Shown piece by piece: positions 4,235-40,153 of a stretch of 64,000 bases of DNA. The stretch comes from Mycolicibacter hiberniae. Its GTDB lineage: Bacteria > Actinomycetota > Actinomycetes > Mycobacteriales > Mycobacteriaceae. The stretch covers positions 3,968,001-4,032,000 of the forward strand of contig NZ_AP022609.1 in assembly GCF_010729485.1 (NCBI RefSeq), given 5' to 3'. The stretch's first letter is position 1. The number at the start of each line of letters is the position of its first letter. The notes below the pieces were generated by a model that was not told the DNA's origin, did no database searches, and worked only from the letters and a program-made list of their open reading frames with translations. Position numbers and translations under genes: made by a program.

Positions 4235-7200
4235 ATGACTGGTAAGCAGCACCGCACAGGGCGTCGTGGTTTCACGGGCGCAGAGGCCCGACGGCGTAGT
4301 CGGAGCGTTGCGGCGGCCGGTAGTGCGGTTGGGGCGTTTTTGACGTTTGGGATGGCGCCGTTGTCTGCGGCGCCTGCGGCGCATGCTGATGAGTTTGATT
4401 GGGTTGTGGACCTGCTGGGTGATGACCTGGCGGGTGCGTTCGCGGATCTGAGTCAGGCGTCGTCGTGGGAGACGTTGTTTGACGCGGGTTCGTGGGAGCC
4501 GTTGCTGTCGAACGTGGGGTTGTCGTTTGATGCGTCGGTGGCGGACCTGCCGGGTGGGGCGGCTGCGGATGACTGGTTCGGTTCGCTGTTCTACCAGCCG
4601 TTGTATGAGCTGGGGCAGGCTTGGATTCTGAGCCCGATCGGTGAGCAGGTCAATTCGTTTATCAACCTGTTCGGTTTCGGTCAGATGCTGATCGGTAACG
4701 GTGAAGACGGTATCGACGGTGGCACGTTGGCTGAGGCTGCTGGTGGTACCGGTGGTCTGTGGTTCGGTGATGGTGGTGCTGCGGGTACGTCGCTTGACGG
4801 TATCGGTGGTGTCGGTGGTTCGGCCGGCATGTTCGGTAATGGTGGCGTCGGTGGTGACGGTTTTGACGGCGGCGATGGTGGTGCTGGTGGTGCCGGCGGT
4901 TGGTTGATGGGCATCGGTGGTGATGGTGGTGCTGGTGGCGCTGGCATTGCTGGTGGTGATGGTGGCCTCGGTGGCGCCGGTGGTGCGGGTATCGGTCTGT
5001 TCTACGGCGTTGGTGGTAACGGTGGTCTCGGTGGCGACGGCGCGCTGGGTGCGGCCGGTGTGGCTGGTTTGGCCGGGCTGGACGGGTTGGCCGGTGACAA
5101 CGGTGGTGCCGGCGGTGCTGGTGGTGCCGGTGGTCGGGGTTCGTGGCTGATCGGTTCCGGTGGTAAGGGCGGCGCCGGTGGTGCCGGTGGCGCCGGTGGT
5201 GCCGGCGGCAATGGTGGTGCCGGTATCGACGGTGTGCTGGCCGGTGAAGACGGTGGCGACGCCGGTGACGGTGGCAACGGCGGTAATGGTGGTGCCGCGG
5301 GTGCTGCCGGTGCTGGTGGTGTCGGCGGTTGGATCGGTTCCAACGGTCTGGCCGGTGCGGTGGGTATCGGCGGTAATGGTGGCGCTGCCGGTATTGGTGG
5401 TAACGGTGGTGCGGGTGCTGACGGTGACGCGTCGAATCTTGATGGTGGTGCCGGTGGTCGTGGTGGCGACGCCGGTGTAGCCGGTAACGCGGGCGGCGCT
5501 GGTGGTGTCGCGGGTGCGGCGGCGACCTCCGGTGGTAACGGTGGCCGCGGTGGCGATGCTGCCGATGCGTTGGTGGCCGGTGGCAATGGTGGTGTGGGTG
5601 GTCGCGGTGGTGACGCGGGCAACCTGGGCGATGGTGGCGCCGGCGGTAACGGTGGTGCCGGTGCGGCCGGTGTCGCGGGCGCGACGGTCGGTGCCGATGG
5701 CACCGAGGGCCAGGCCGGTGGTAACGGTGGCGCTGGTGGTGCCGGTGGTGCGGCCGGTTCGCTGGCCGGTAACGGTGGCGCTGGTGGTGTCGGTGGTGCC
5801 GGCGCCGCGGGTGGTGCCGGTGGTGCTGCGGCTGATGGGGACGCGGGTCTTAACGCGGTGGCCGGTAGCGGTGCTGACGGTGGCGGCGGTGGCGATGCGA
5901 CCGGTACCGCGGGCAACGGTGGCGCCGGTGGTCTTGGTGGTGACGGTGGCGCTGGTGGTGCGTCGGCGAAGGGTCTGGCCGGTGTGCACGGTGCCGGTGG
6001 TGTCGGTGGCGACGGTGGCGCCGGTGGCGCGGCCGGTAACGGTGGCACCGGTGGTGCTGGTGCCGGCGGTGGACTTTCCGCGGTGGCCGGTGCCGGTGGT
6101 AAGGGCGGTAACTCCAGCTCGGCGGCCGGTGCCGGTGGCGTCGGTGGTGCGGGTGGCTCCAGTGGCGGGTTGTTGGCGGCCTCGGGTGCTGACGGTGGCG
6201 AGGGTGCGGCCGGTAACGGTGGCGACGGTGGTGTCGGTGGCGCGGGCCAGGTCCTCGGTGATGGCACCGTCCAGGCCGGTGGTGCCGGTGGTGCCGGTGG
6301 CGACGCCGCCGACCACGGCAACGGCGGTAACGGTGGAGCCGGCGGCCAAGGCGCAACCGGCCAAGGCGGCAGCACCGACCTCAACGGCAACGGCACGACC
6401 GGTGGCACCGGCGCAGCCGGTGGCGTCGGCGGTACCGGTGGCGCCGGCGGACAGTACTCCGGCAACGGCGGTAACGGTGGTACCGGCGGCGTAGGTGGTA
6501 CCGGTGGTGTCGGTGGCCGCGGCTACGACGGCGAGGACGGCATCGACGCGGCGGCCGGCAGTGGCGGCAGCGGTACCGACGGTGTGGACGCCGGCAACGG
6601 TGGCAACGGTGGCGTCGGTGGTGTCGGCGGCCAGGGTGGTGCCGGTGGTACGGCCGCAGCGGGCGCCGCCGGTCTCCAGGGTGACGGTGGTGCGGGTGGC
6701 CTCGGCGGTGCCGCCGGCGACGCCGGTAACGGCGGTAACGGTGGTGCGGGCGCCGGGGGCGGCGTCAACGCCACGGCGGGATCCGGCGGTAACGGTGGCG
6801 CCGGTGGTAACCGCGGTACGTCCGGTGCCGGTGGTGCCGGCGGTTGGAACGCGGACAACACCGCCCAGGCATCCTCCGGTGAGGCCGGGGCTGCCGGCAA
6901 CGGCGGCAACGGCGGCGCGGGCGGTAAGGGCGGCGACGGCGACCTGCTCGGCGGCATCGTCGCTCAGCACGGCGGCAACGGTGGCGCGGGTGGCGCCGCC
7001 GGAAACGACGGCGACGGTGGCGCCGGTGGCGCCGGCGGTATCGGCGCATCCGGTGTTCACGGGACGACCGTCGTCATCGACGGCACCGCTGGTGGTGCCG
7101 GTGCTCTTGGCGGCAACGGCGGCGCGGGTGGTGCCGGTGGAGCCAACTCCGGAACCGGCGGCGCCGGTGGCGCCGGTGGCGCCGGTGGTCACGGTGGTAA

Positions 7201-36378: not shown

Positions 36379-36469
36379 GGTGGCGTGTCCGAGCGGCCTA
36401 AGGAGCACGCCTCGAAAGCGTGTGTGGGGTAACCCCCCACCGAGGGTTCAAATCCCTCCGCCACCGCCA
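36379..36469 (+). tRNA. tRNA-Ser (anticodon CGA)
   Basis: Acceptor GGTGGCG pairs with CGCCACC at 36459-36465, then G and encoded CCA (36467-36469). Anticodon loop CTCGAAA gives CGA, reading UCG. The long variable arm (GTGGGGTAACCCCCCAC) is serine-type. Its last 26 bases are nearly identical to those of the TGA isoacceptor at 15231. Confidence 0.95.
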
Positions 36470-36764: not shown

Positions 36765-36791
36765 ATATACATCCTTGTATATCCAATACAG
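36765..36791 (-). promoter_or_regulatory. Three-half-site operator before the Rieske gene
   Basis: On the minus strand the site reads CTGTATT-N2-ATATACA-N4-TGTATAT, the same pattern as at 39497-39523 on the plus strand (21 of 27 positions shared). The inner part is a perfect palindrome, GGATATACA-N4-TGTATATCC (36763-36784). It lies about 105 bases before ATG 36897. Best read as the operator of the TetR-family regulator at 38793. Confidence 0.75.
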
Positions 36792-36896
36792 AAATGTAGA
36801 GTTGTGGCTGCGATCACGTTCAGCCCCTTCCTCCGGCGCTTGGCCCGCTGCCCGCCGAGGTCTCCGGCCCGGGATGCCCCGACCCAAGGAGCAGAT

Positions 36897-38258
36897 ATGC
36901 AGTCGACGAAGCCCGGTGACTGGGTCGAGACCGCACCCACCCTCGAGGACATCGACTTCGCCGGGTACCGGATGAACATCCCCACCGATCGCTACATCTG
37001 TCCGGAGATCGCCGAGCGCGAGGCCGAGCAGATCTGGAAGAAGGTCTGGCGCGTGGTGGGCCGGGTCAGTGAACTGCCCGAGACGGGGGACTGGAAGGAA
37101 TACCGCATCCGCGACCAGTCCTATGTGATCGTCCGGGGCAAGGACGAGCGGATCCGGGGCTTCGTCAATGCCTGCCGGCACCGGGGGAACCGACTGTGCG
37201 AGGGCGCCGGCAACGCCAAGCGGGGCCTGCTCTGCCAATACCACCTGTGGTCCTACGGCCTCGATGGCCATCTGCGGGGCGTGCTGCGGGAGAAGGAGAA
37301 CACACTGTCCCCGCTGGACAAGGAGGGGCTCTCGCTGCTGCCGGTGGCGGTCGAGTGCCTCGCCGGCTTCATCTTCCTCAATCCCGACCCTGATGCCGAA
37401 CCGCTGAGTGAGTTTCTGGGACCCGAAATCGCCGAGATGCTCCAGCCCTACCACCTCGATGAGATGGTCACGGTGATGGACGTCAAAGAGGACCTGGAAT
37501 GTAACTGGAAGGTTGTCATGGACGCCTTCGAGGAGGGCTATCACATCTCCGGGATCCACCCCCAGTTGCTGCGCGTCATCATGATCGACCCCTACAAGAG
37601 TCGGTACAAGCTTCTGGACAAGCACAGCATCTCCATGGCCCCGTTCGAAGTGGCCAATGCCGACACGTACAGCGCCGAAGAGCAAGTCGAAGGAATCCTG
37701 GAGCTGCCCGAGACCTTCCCCTCGGTGCAGGCGTCACTGCCACGGTTTCAGGAGCTGGTCGACGAATACCGGGATCAGGGGCGCGAGCTGGCGTTCCCCG
37801 AGGGGGTCACCGCGCGCACCCTGCTGCAGCGGGCAACCCGGGAAACCCTGCGCGGGATGGGCCTGGACGTCGACGGGTTGACCGATGCGCAGATGAGCGA
37901 CAACCACGGCTGGGTGCTGTTCCCGAATTTCTTCATGACGATCCGTGCCGGTGAGGCAACCGTCATCATGTCCGAACCGCACCCCAGCGGTGATCCGAAC
38001 AGATGCTCCTGGCACATCATGAGTTTCATGTGGCTGCCCGAAGAGCACCGCGGCGCCTTCAAGGCCGAGCCCATCGTGGTGGACGAGCCGGGTTCATACA
38101 AGTATTTCCTTGCCCTGCAGCAGGATTACGAACAGATGCCGCGTCAGCAGATCGGTCTGCGCAACGAGCGGTTGAAGCACATGTCATTGGTCAAAGAGGA
38201 GATCGTGATCGCCCATTACCACTCCGTCGTCGACCGCTACCTGGCCGGCGCCATCTAG
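36897..38258 (+). CDS. Rieske non-heme iron oxygenase, alpha subunit
   Basis: 453 residues; AAGGAG six bases before ATG 36897 decides the start. Rieske [2Fe-2S] ligands C93-x-H95 and C113-x2-H116 (CRH...CQYH). The catalytic domain follows: NWKVVMDAFEEGYHISGIHP (about 202-221) carries the His-x4-His iron pair, and the third ligand Asp is expected in the helix near DNHGWVLFP (about 335). Such enzymes insert oxygen into aromatic, terpenoid or steroidal compounds with NAD(P)H via ferredoxin and reductase partners, which are not encoded nearby. It heads an island with two NTF2-like proteins, a TetR and a P450; the NTF2-like proteins could be small-subunit analogues. Substrate unknown. Confidence 0.9.
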   Translation: MQSTKPGDWVETAPTLEDIDFAGYRMNIPTDRYICPEIAEREAEQIWKKVWRVVGRVSELPETGDWKEYRIRDQSYVIVRGKDERIRGFVNACRHRGNRLCEGAGNAKRGLLCQYHLWSYGLDGHLRGVLREKENTLSPLDKEGLSLLPVAVECLAGFIFLNPDPDAEPLSEFLGPEIAEMLQPYHLDEMVTVMDVKEDLECNWKVVMDAFEEGYHISGIHPQLLRVIMIDPYKSRYKLLDKHSISMAPFEVANADTYSAEEQVEGILELPETFPSVQASLPRFQELVDEYRDQGRELAFPEGVTARTLLQRATRETLRGMGLDVDGLTDAQMSDNHGWVLFPNFFMTIRAGEATVIMSEPHPSGDPNRCSWHIMSFMWLPEEHRGAFKAEPIVVDEPGSYKYFLALQQDYEQMPRQQIGLRNERLKHMSLVKEEIVIAHYHSVVDRYLAGAI

Positions 38259-38313
38259 TCTTGCCCGGGCATCGCGACTCAGCCATCCTCTCAACAAGAT
38301 TGGGGCGACCTCG

Positions 38314-38778
38314 ATGAGCGATATCGACTCCGTGATCGACAACCACCACGGCAACACGCGCACGGTATTGGAGTACAGCCGCACCGTGGGCAGGTTGGTG
38401 CACGAAGCCAAGAAGCCGGGGTTCACCGTCGAAAGCTGGGCTCCGCTCGCGCGGCTGGTCGACACCGAGAACTTCGTGCGTGTCGGGAACTTCAAAGAAG
38501 TCATGAACTGGGCGCAATACACGGCCTTTCTGACGGGCTGGGCAACGGCGTCCCTGTGGGACGCCACCTTCCGGCGGATCAGCACGGTCGAGGGGATTGT
38601 GTTCCTCGAGCTCGAGGAACACAGCACGATCGGGGACTTCCACAGCGTGGTGAACTCGGCCAGCATCTACGAGTTCGACGATGCCGGCAGGATCGCCCGC
38701 GTCGATGTCTACCTACAGATGGAACTGCCCAGCCCGGATCTGCTCGCCGGCGGGCTGAGCGGAGACACCGCGCAGTGA
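38314..38778 (+). CDS. NTF2-like protein in the Rieske operon
   Basis: 154 residues. The helix-strand pattern of the SnoaL/NTF2 cone fold is visible: VLEYSRTVGRLVHEAK, FVRVGNFKEVMNWAQYTAFLTGWA, EGIVFLELEEHSTIGDF and a C-terminal sheet YEFDDAGRIARVDVYLQMELP. It follows the Rieske gene by 55 bp, so is probably co-transcribed. Small subunits of many ring-hydroxylating dioxygenases share this fold, so it may be a distant beta subunit, or a ketosteroid-isomerase-like enzyme acting on the oxygenated product. The catalytic residues cannot be named. Confidence 0.8.
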   Translation: MSDIDSVIDNHHGNTRTVLEYSRTVGRLVHEAKKPGFTVESWAPLARLVDTENFVRVGNFKEVMNWAQYTAFLTGWATASLWDATFRRISTVEGIVFLELEEHSTIGDFHSVVNSASIYEFDDAGRIARVDVYLQMELPSPDLLAGGLSGDTAQ

Positions 38779-38792
38779 TGCCGCCCCGCGGG

Positions 38793-39431
38793 TCAGCTGC
38801 CGCGCTGTGAACCGGGGCGGTTGCCGGCCGCCGGCTTGGGTCGCACACTGGCCAGCACCATCTGCAGAAACGGCGTCTGGAGGTCTTCGCCGTCCAGGTA
38901 GGAGCCGATGGTGATGCCCTCATTGGTGGCGACCAGCACCTTGGCCAGCTGGTGGGCCGGTACGGTCAGCTCTCCGCCGAGCCGGCTGCTGTGTTTTTCG
39001 ATGTAGTCGGCCAGCGAGTTCAGGGCCTGTCGCCGCTTGCCCGCCAGGCGTTCGCGAGCCTCGGGATTGCGCAGCAGGAACAGCGAAAACTCATGGCCCA
39101 GGGCGGCGCTGTCGGGACCGCCTGTCACCAGCTCACGCCACCGCTGGGCGAACTGCGCCACATCGAGTTCCTCCAGCGTCTCGAACGAGCTGATGACGTC
39201 TTCGAAGCTGGACAAAAAGCGCTGCAGGTGCCGCTCGATGACGGCCAGGAACAACTCCTCCTTGGCCCCGAAATGCGAGTAGATCGCGCCGCGGGTGTAC
39301 CCGGCGGCATCGGCGATGTCCTCAAGGGCCGCCCCGGCGTAGCCCCGCCGGGCGAACACCTCCTCGGCGGCGTCCAGCAACACGCTGCGGGTGTGTTCCA
39401 CGCGCCGTTGCCGGGTCCATCGTTCCGCCAC
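38793..39431 (-). CDS. TetR-family repressor of the catabolic island
   Basis: 212 residues from GTG 39431. The N-terminal HTH reads RSVLLDAAEEVFARRGYAGAALEDIADAAGYTRGAIYSHFGAKEELF in order (residues about 12-57). The C-terminal ligand domain ends GEDLQTPFLQMVLASVRPK. It is transcribed away from the NTF2/P450 unit (39629) with an operator between them at 39497-39523 and a second copy before the Rieske gene. That arrangement is the signature of an autoregulated local repressor, presumably released by the pathway substrate. The frame is open upstream to 39602, but no better start is visible. Confidence 0.87.
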   Translation of the reverse strand: MAERWTRQRRVEHTRSVLLDAAEEVFARRGYAGAALEDIADAAGYTRGAIYSHFGAKEELFLAVIERHLQRFLSSFEDVISSFETLEELDVAQFAQRWRELVTGGPDSAALGHEFSLFLLRNPEARERLAGKRRQALNSLADYIEKHSSRLGGELTVPAHQLAKVLVATNEGITIGSYLDGEDLQTPFLQMVLASVRPKPAAGNRPGSQRGS

Positions 39432-39496
39432 GGGATTTATTGTCCCAGCCCGGTTGCCATTGCGCCCACCAACGCCCCCAAACCCTAGATACGACG

Positions 39497-39523
39497 CTGT
39501 ATTCAATATACAGTCCTGTATAT
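39497..39523 (+). promoter_or_regulatory. Three-half-site operator between TetR and NTF2-P450 unit
   Basis: CTGTATT-CA-ATATACA-GTCC-TGTATAT. Two overlapping palindromes (TGTAT-N5-ATACA and ATATACA-N4-TGTATAT) share the middle half site. Located 66 bases from the TetR start and about 106 bases from the GTG at 39629, matching the 106-base distance at the Rieske gene. Confidence 0.78.
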
Positions 39524-39628
39524 GGTGCTGACGTGTCGTGCGGCTCGTGCCCGCCGAGCCGGCCGCGGCCCTCGTCGCCTTTCGCGAAACGTCTTTCACC
39601 ACAACTTGTCACGTGAGGGAGGCCTGCT

Positions 39629-40153
39629 GTGAAGCTGGAGGATCGGATAGCCAAGCACCGCCGGATGGCGGAAAGCTACCGCGACAAGTACGTACTGCAG
39701 CAGGTTCAAGACGGCGAGACCTACGACGAATGGGAGTTCACCGACGACGCGGTCTACACGTCGCCGTACTTTGTGGCCGATCAGGAGTTGGTACTCAAAG
39801 ACGTGGCCACCCATTGGAGCACCGCGGCCACCATCGAAGCCAAGGCCTACGGTTTGACCTTCCCGGACTGGAAACCCGTGGAATTCAAAGTCTGGCCCGC
39901 CGAAAACGGTTTCGTCCAGCGCTATCGCTGGGAGGGAACCAACGTCAACACCGGGCACGTCCAGGGCTTCTACTCGATCAGCTTCGTCGAGACCGACGAC
40001 GACTGCAAGATTGTGCACTGGTCGACCTATGTCAACGACGACGAGTACGGACCCTTTCTGGAGGCGGCGATCGGCGCGCGTGGACCGTTCCACGGGGACG
40101 GCTATATGCAAGCCCTGGCAAGCCATTTCGAGAAGCACGGCATCACTTTCTAG
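39629..40153 (+). CDS. NTF2-like protein preceding the P450
   Basis: 174 residues from GTG 39629 with AGGGAGG six bases upstream. Typical NTF2/SnoaL features: helix KLEDRIAKHRRMAESYRDKYVLQQV, TDDAVYTSPYF, TFPDWKPVEFKVWPAE and WEGTNVNTGHVQGFYSISFVETDDDCKIVHWSTYV. Rich in Trp, Tyr and Asp, suggesting a polar aromatic pocket. It shares no obvious close identity with the NTF2-like protein at 38314. Likely an enzyme or carrier for the island's substrate; inference. The P450 starts 67 bp later on the same strand. Confidence 0.8.
   Translation: MKLEDRIAKHRRMAESYRDKYVLQQVQDGETYDEWEFTDDAVYTSPYFVADQELVLKDVATHWSTAATIEAKAYGLTFPDWKPVEFKVWPAENGFVQRYRWEGTNVNTGHVQGFYSISFVETDDDCKIVHWSTYVNDDEYGPFLEAAIGARGPFHGDGYMQALASHFEKHGITF

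Follow-up and report, generated by a model that had tools for sequence, protein, structure and literature searches.

The window analyzed here is a 64,000-nucleotide stretch of the Mycolicibacter hiberniae genome (assembly GCF_010729485.1, contig NZ_AP022609.1, positions 3,968,001 to 4,032,000), and the locus of interest within it comprises genes for the alpha subunit of a Rieske ring-hydroxylating oxygenase, a small conserved protein, a TetR-family regulator read in the opposite direction, an NTF2-like protein, and a cytochrome P450 (Table 1). A preliminary description of this DNA reported a 27-bp motif on either side of the TetR gene. Its coordinates and strands are exact for both copies, the two agree at 21 of 27 positions on recount, and the reported spacings also hold: 106 bp from the nearer site edge to the start codons of both the Rieske and the NTF2-like gene, and 66 bp from the TetR start to the second site. 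The description read each copy as three half-sites, which is a partial view, as just beyond each 27-mer lies a conserved fourth half-site matching at four of five bases. The full operator is a symmetric 33 bp, ATACA-N4-TGTAT-N5-ATACA-N4-TGTAT, which resolves into two 18-bp palindromes separated by a single base pair, giving a 19-bp period, each built on a 14-bp core unit, ATACA-N4-TGTAT. Because the operator is symmetric, the first match can be read on the minus strand despite the plus-strand gene; the second is intergenic, between the divergent TetR and NTF2-like genes. The earlier observation is right, and its three-half-site reading is best replaced by a predicted symmetric operator of two units and four half-sites. 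We consider it probable that the TetR encoded between the two sites uses both as operators, each accommodating two side-by-side dimers over a promoter and vacated in response to a ligand.

Table 1. Features of the oxygenase locus, in coordinates of the window.
Feature	Position	Strand	Details
tRNA-Ser(cga) gene	36379-36469		directly upstream of the cluster
27-mer, first copy, CTGTATTGGATATACAAGGATGTATAT	36765-36791	-	exact match
Operator 1	36767-36799	+	ATACA 36767-36771, TGTAT 36776-36780, ATACA 36786-36790, TGTAG 36795-36799; 19/20 consensus bases
Operator 1, complete 18-bp unit, ATATACATCCTTGTATAT	36765-36782	none	0 mismatches to AKATACANNNNTGTATMT
Operator 1, second unit	36784-36801		weaker than the 36765-36782 unit
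Candidate -35 TTGTAT, Rieske promoter	36775-36780	+	16-bp spacer to candidate -10
Candidate -10 TAGAGT, Rieske promoter	36797-36802	+	starts in last half-site; TANNNT at offset 30
CRP/FNR-like palindrome GTGG-CTGCGA-TCAC	36804-36817	+	directly downstream of operator 1
Rieske ring-hydroxylating oxygenase alpha subunit	36897-38258	+	453 aa; ATG at 36897; PF00848, PF00355
Small conserved protein	38314-38778	+	154 aa; no Pfam match; 'SnoaL-like' merely a label
TetR-family regulator	38793-39431	-	212 aa; GTG at 39431; recognition helix TRGAIYSHF; predicted cognate repressor
Operator 2	39489-39521	+	ATACG 39489-39493, TGTAT 39498-39502, ATACA 39508-39512, TGTAT 39517-39521; 19/20 consensus bases
Operator 2, other unit	39487-39504		weaker than the 39506-39523 unit
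27-mer, second copy, CTGTATTCAATATACAGTCCTGTATAT	39497-39523	+	exact match
Operator 2, complete 18-bp unit, ATATACAGTCCTGTATAT	39506-39523	none	0 mismatches to AKATACANNNNTGTATMT
Candidate -10 TATGGT, NTF2-P450 promoter	39521-39526	+	starts at last base of operator 2; offset 32
NTF2-like protein (name from the preliminary description)	39629-40153	+	174 aa; GTG at 39629; no significant Pfam or PDB match
Cytochrome P450	40221-41429	+	402 aa; best PDB sequence match CYP130

No other match to the 27-mer with up to three mismatches occurs in the window, and 100 dinucleotide shuffles yielded none. Across the organism's own genome, a single contig of 4,396,654 bp, a search with a 25-bp form allowing up to three mismatches gave six matches against two for the backwards control: each of the two sites read on both strands, plus two three-mismatch matches elsewhere. 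The general four-half-site form (up to three mismatches) found only the two operators and the site of a TetR paralog, and single units with up to two mismatches also occur at C1:3666177 and C1:4086072. Occurrence at many unrelated genomic positions, which the preliminary description had named as an argument against its proposal, was not seen in this genome. A relaxed three-half-site pattern (two mismatches) had matches in 97 of 198 genomes; many genomes also matched the backwards control, and the 33-bp form was therefore used instead. Across 396 genomes of the genus, this form occurred in 98 when up to three mismatches were allowed (backwards control, 9 of 396). Outside the mycobacteria, the site occurs with the enzyme genes in Nocardia, Aldersonia, and a Rhodococcus metagenome-assembled genome (MAG). 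It is also present, without the enzyme set, upstream of distant TetRs in an actinobacterial MAG (TetR 45% identical) and an acidobacterial MAG (38%). These two operators lie at positions 320-352 of locus L215 (Actinobacteria) and 4876-4927 of locus L216 (Acidobacteria), the latter with a partial third unit.

Conservation was assessed on 53 sites (at least 17/20 consensus bases) from 40 fetched regions plus the window; the regions were picked from operator and TetR matches and so are no random sample, and one of them, L116, is counted twice, its array forming two overlapping sites. Outer half-sites are perfect in 71 of 106 instances and inner ones in 76 of 106. The outer flank before ATACA favors A and then T (frequencies 0.60 and 0.63), and the inner spacer after TGTAT favors [CA] and then T, such that every half-site reads A[TG]ATACA. 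With the A[TG]/[AC]T flank on both outer and inner half-sites, the unit becomes A[TG]ATACA-N4-TGTAT[AC]T. No fifth half-site was found in the flanks of the 53 operators. The most invariant bases of the outer half-site include the T (0.99) and C (0.98) of a T-x-C motif, and all eight T-x-C bases, spaced TxC-N6-GxA, are kept in 68 of 76 sites.

The spacing was examined in loci found by the TetR protein alone, of which at least 80 were listed and 69 (L137-L205, at least 54% identity) entered the test. A 14-bp unit matching at 9/10 bases or more lies within 1,200 bp upstream of the TetR in 66 of the 69. At a gap of 5 bp, a second unit scores 9.0/10 on average and at least 7/10 in 65 of these 66 loci; among the other gaps up to 40 bp, starting from 0, none has more than six loci at 7/10 or above. 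Three-unit arrays keep the same 19-bp step (L116; partly L166 and L216). Because the two collections overlap in species and their members are related, these counts are not independent.

Downstream of the sites lie the same enzyme genes. Within 700 bp of every one of the 53 sites there is a Rieske (34), NTF2-like (17), or P450 gene (2). In the TetR-found loci, 74 of 79 sites (at least 16/20) precede enzyme genes: 61 Rieske, 11 NTF2-like, and 2 P450. Of the five sites to which the script assigned no enzyme gene, one is in L143, where site and aligned gene start fall together; the others are the second one of L151, that of L215, and two overlapping ones in L216.

The regulator itself has a TetR N-terminal domain (PF00440, E-value 1.4e-17) and a mostly helical predicted structure (predicted local distance difference test, pLDDT, 84) with helices at residues 36–43 and 47–54. 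A Mycolicibacter engbaekii TetR, 90% identical, is its nearest named relative among the matches listed. We defined its subgroup by scores of at least 246 bits (55–100% identity), paralogs scoring at most 225 bits, with the cutoff chosen after the gap was seen. Among 198 genomes, 50 have both site and subgroup TetR, one has the TetR only (G004), one has the site only (G147), and 146 have neither (Fisher p about 1e-44, uncorrected for relatedness). The exception G004 carries a diverged site (L261:6780-6812) about 55 bp upstream of its TetR, with the same geometry and all eight T-x-C bases intact but with changes at 7 of the 12 other consensus bases; from its sequence, it appears to be a natural specificity variant. 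The start of a subgroup TetR lies within 700 bp of 40 of the 53 sites. Conservation, co-occurrence, and spacing together lend strong support to the proposal in the preliminary description that the matched sites are operators of the neighboring TetR, and we treat them as predicted sites of that protein.

Paralogs of this TetR offer a further view of recognition. The own-genome paralog (G000:C1:3087152-3087775, 52% identical) has the unit AGATACTGATGAGTATAT about 45 bp upstream. In 35 paralog upstream regions, all eight ATAC/GTAT bases are present in 32 and seven in two, and one (L258) has no unit. The inner base of the paralogs' left half-site is C or T (ATAC[CT]); here it is A (0.85) or G (0.15). 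Recognition-helix residues differ as well: among 116 TetR stretches, 58 are R..S, 8 R..A, 44 K..K, and 1 K..N, with 5 unreadable. The K types are the paralogs, mostly TKG..K instead of TRG..S. A FastTree tree of a subset, rooted at its midpoint and read for topology only, unites the K-type proteins in a single clade; both MAG proteins belong to the R type. For paralog group B, a gap of 19 scores as high as a gap of 5, and no firm tandem is therefore claimed. At the own-genome paralog locus (L222, G000:C1:3082000-3092000), the paralogous TetR, with its own ATACT/ATACC-type unit, is divergent to a gene for an AveC-like spirocyclase, and another Rieske-type oxygenase frame adjoins it.

The operators also appear to coincide with promoters. 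With the 53 sites oriented towards the enzyme gene, a TANNNT element starts at operator offset 30, within the last half-site, in 36; it is present at offset 32 in 17 and at offset 1 in 14. All remaining offsets, including offset 11 (the equivalent spot in the inner half-site), stay below a quarter of the sites. These positions, together with the candidate elements in Table 1, suggest that promoters are placed over the operators. At Rieske promoters the operator is followed by a GTG-N8-CAC palindrome in 56 of 61 cases (51 of 61 for the strict form GTG[AG]-N6-TCAC), compared with a shuffled downstream rate of 1.7%, and of the 58 places recorded across all gene types, 54 fall at offset 36 or 37. 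Other promoters rarely have it (NTF2, 2 of 11; P450, 0 of 2). In the window alone the motif is found 3 times versus 5.2 expected by chance, so that what gives the palindrome weight is where it lies and how well it is conserved. Its sequence is close to the CRP consensus, TGTGA-N6-TCACA (PMC4117774), and by this similarity it may be a CRP/FNR site. The preliminary description had also suggested overlapping sites of two proteins; this is unsupported for the 27 bp, and the CRP-like palindrome adjoins the operator at Rieske promoters.

How the repressor might occupy these operators is suggested by DarR, a c-di-AMP-binding TetR protein of mycobacteria and rhodococci. DarR binds ATACT(N)4AGTAT, its Lys44 and Gly45 read T-x-C, and a second dimer sits on an overlapping pseudo-palindrome (PMC10636190). 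The T-x-C motifs seen here have the spacing of those of DarR and are among the most invariant bases, which points to one dimer per 14-bp unit; because the repeating unit is a 14-bp palindrome, each dimer can own a half-site pair. One TetR dimer would bind each palindromic unit, placing two dimers side by side on one operator. Since the operator carries a -10-like element and probably a -35 as well, a repressor sitting on it would keep RNA polymerase off both the Rieske promoter (36.8 kb) and the NTF2-P450 promoter (39.5 kb). The TetR would repress its own gene too, given that operator 2 is located between the divergent genes. Release would come from a small molecule, probably one that the oxygenases consume or make. 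At Rieske promoters, the CRP/FNR-like palindrome near the expected start may add a second, global input, probably repressive; in Mycobacterium tuberculosis, CRP binding near the start goes with repression (PMC4117774). What the analysis shows is the sites, how they are arranged and conserved, and their linkage to this TetR subgroup and to the enzyme genes; binding, stoichiometry, promoter placement, repression, ligand, and the part played by CRP are inferred.

Other arrangements have to be weighed against this one. Both 27-mers hold three perfect half-sites, and the preliminary description proposed that two dimers share the middle one. Two dimers remain likely; the sharing is unsupported, as shown by the fourth half-site, which is present at the open end of both copies (four of five bases) and is elsewhere about as conserved as the inner ones, and by the retention of all eight key bases across most sites. 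By reasoning, moreover, one half-site cannot hold two recognition helices simultaneously, and we regard such sharing as extremely improbable. An overlapping dimer-of-dimers as in QacR, CprB, or DarR, with dimers on different faces a few bp apart, either within a unit or across the center, fares better and is simply unlikely. This mode is known for several TetR proteins (PMC4150764 and PMC10636190), the operator is long and palindromic like those of the QacR/CprB/DarR class, and the best NCBIfam match of our TetR is the ScbR family (NF041196), although at 73.4 bits over residues 8–89 only, far below the 150-bit cut-off. A T-x-C-N6-G-x-A motif shifted by 3 bp inside the 33 bp, however, is complete in none of 76 sites in either direction, and one shifted by 6 bp in 0 and 1 of 76 for the two directions. 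The inner pair TGTAT-N5-ATACA has a polarity opposite to that of the DarR unit, and 18-bp units at a 19-bp step do not overlap.

That inner pair could itself be a plausible 15–17 bp TetR site for a single dimer, with the outer half-sites serving as accessory or promoter elements; the overlap of the last half-site with the candidate -10 would fit. We judge this very unlikely, as the outer half-sites are about as conserved as the inner at both ends, arrays grow by whole 14-bp units at the same step, and the single strong unit of the paralogs is of the 14-bp type. It is highly improbable, finally, that a regulator other than the neighboring TetR binds the sites. In favor of one are the 13 of 53 sites with no subgroup TetR start within 700 bp and the site in G147, where the subgroup TetR is missing; against it, 50 of 51 TetR-positive genomes have the site versus 1 of 147 others, and from one paralog type to the other, the half-site changes its inner base in step with the recognition helix.

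Several observations nevertheless count against two TetR dimers standing side by side over these promoters, or limit how far that arrangement extends. Co-occurrence alone cannot single out the TetR, because the Rieske and NTF2 genes co-occur too. The site is absent from 11 of the 80 listed loci, namely L138 (75% identity), L157, and nine paralog or more distant loci (L206-L214), among which the five Actinomadura K-type paralogs (L210-L214) have no unit upstream in any case; L146 has none within 1,200 bp upstream of its TetR, and the NTF2 promoter of L119 has no clear site. No enzyme of the Rieske/NTF2/P450 set adjoins the site at the two MAG loci. In the paralogs, a second unit at 19 bp is weakly present. 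In the promoter signal, the TA of TANNNT belongs to the half-site itself, so that the following T is the informative base, and operator 2 has the element at offset 32 rather than 30. Eight operators have the TetR start 495–599 bp away; together with the 13 of 53 sites lacking a near start, they indicate that autorepression is not universal.

Among published systems, DarR shares the 14-bp geometry (ATAC-N6-GTAT), the T-x-C contacts, and AGATACT arms, and its T43-K44-G45..Y48 corresponds to T46-R47-G48..Y51 here when aligned by motif. The systems differ in that the second DarR dimer is shifted by 3 bp (read from motifs), whereas complete units here are 19 bp apart. DarR regulates different targets, and its chains match our TetR over about residues 15–82 at about 45 bits, versus at least 190 bits for paralogs of the same subfamily, and are not orthologous. 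The nearest functional precedent that we found, compared by description, is the Rv3160c-Rv3161c pair of M. tuberculosis, a TetR repressor of a Rieske-type oxygenase gene (PMC7810876). It likewise has inner and outer palindromes at the -10 region, both needed for good binding, but they span about 50 bp, have inverted repeats of 12 bp and 8 bp, and are drawn as binding one dimer. CprB and QacR also place two dimers on one long operator, with cooperative binding reported (PMC4150764), but on opposite sides of a single 22-bp (CprB) or 28-bp (QacR) site, and the operator sequences compared contain no second complete palindrome. MAB_4384 of M. abscessus (PMC5895659), compared by description, is a TetR with a 27-bp palindrome in a divergent intergenic region and two modeled dimers; its palindrome consists of two degenerate 13-bp arms with a 1-bp spacer, and it controls the MmpS5/MmpL5 pump. 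An operator of the present type was named in none of the titles and abstract openings found in a search that left subscription papers mostly outside, and the motif logos for 30 mycobacterial TetR genes in PMC4482099 could include a match.

We hold it possible, if slightly on the doubtful side, that these proteins represent an old TetR subfamily whose operator has persisted in mycobacteria, in nocardiae, and as far afield as an acidobacterial MAG. Two side-by-side dimers would stand at a 19-bp step over the promoter, unlike in QacR or DarR, with a CRP site at a fixed distance at Rieske genes, and sister proteins would have changed the inner base along with helix residues (R to K, S to K). If true, the changes in the paralogs would be a natural, readable specificity switch. 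With TRG..S paired with ATACA and TKG..K with ATACC/ATACT, the two paralog types open a direct test of how this TetR branch recognizes its DNA. The predicted repressor-operator pair is an exact, widely conserved design tied to an oxygenase gene set; its operator can be used to look for the rest of the regulon and to screen for inducers, and its 19-bp tandem layout differs from the overlapping dimer pairs described for known TetR proteins in the sources above.

The remaining genes of the cluster give some indication of its function. The 154-aa protein is possibly the small subunit of the oxygenase. The 174-aa NTF2-like protein, despite having no significant family match, is 75–98% identical in many relatives, with other copies at 49–55%. 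In two relatives the surroundings were read as well: neighboring genes at L132 include acyl-CoA dehydrogenases, a thiolase, and SDRs (nine chosen reading frames of 51), and those at L104 an aldehyde dehydrogenase, a luciferase-like protein, an SDR, and P450s (nine of 50). Both hint at catabolism of a lipid-like compound and fix no particular substrate. In genome G073 (L107, 6379-7605), tblastn splits the Rieske match into three pieces, which may reflect a broken gene or an error in the sequence, and the M. engbaekii stretch L118 has TetR, NTF2-like, and P450 matches and no Rieske match. Directly upstream of the cluster in the window lies a tRNA-Ser(cga) gene, and this end of the cluster is a possible insertion point.

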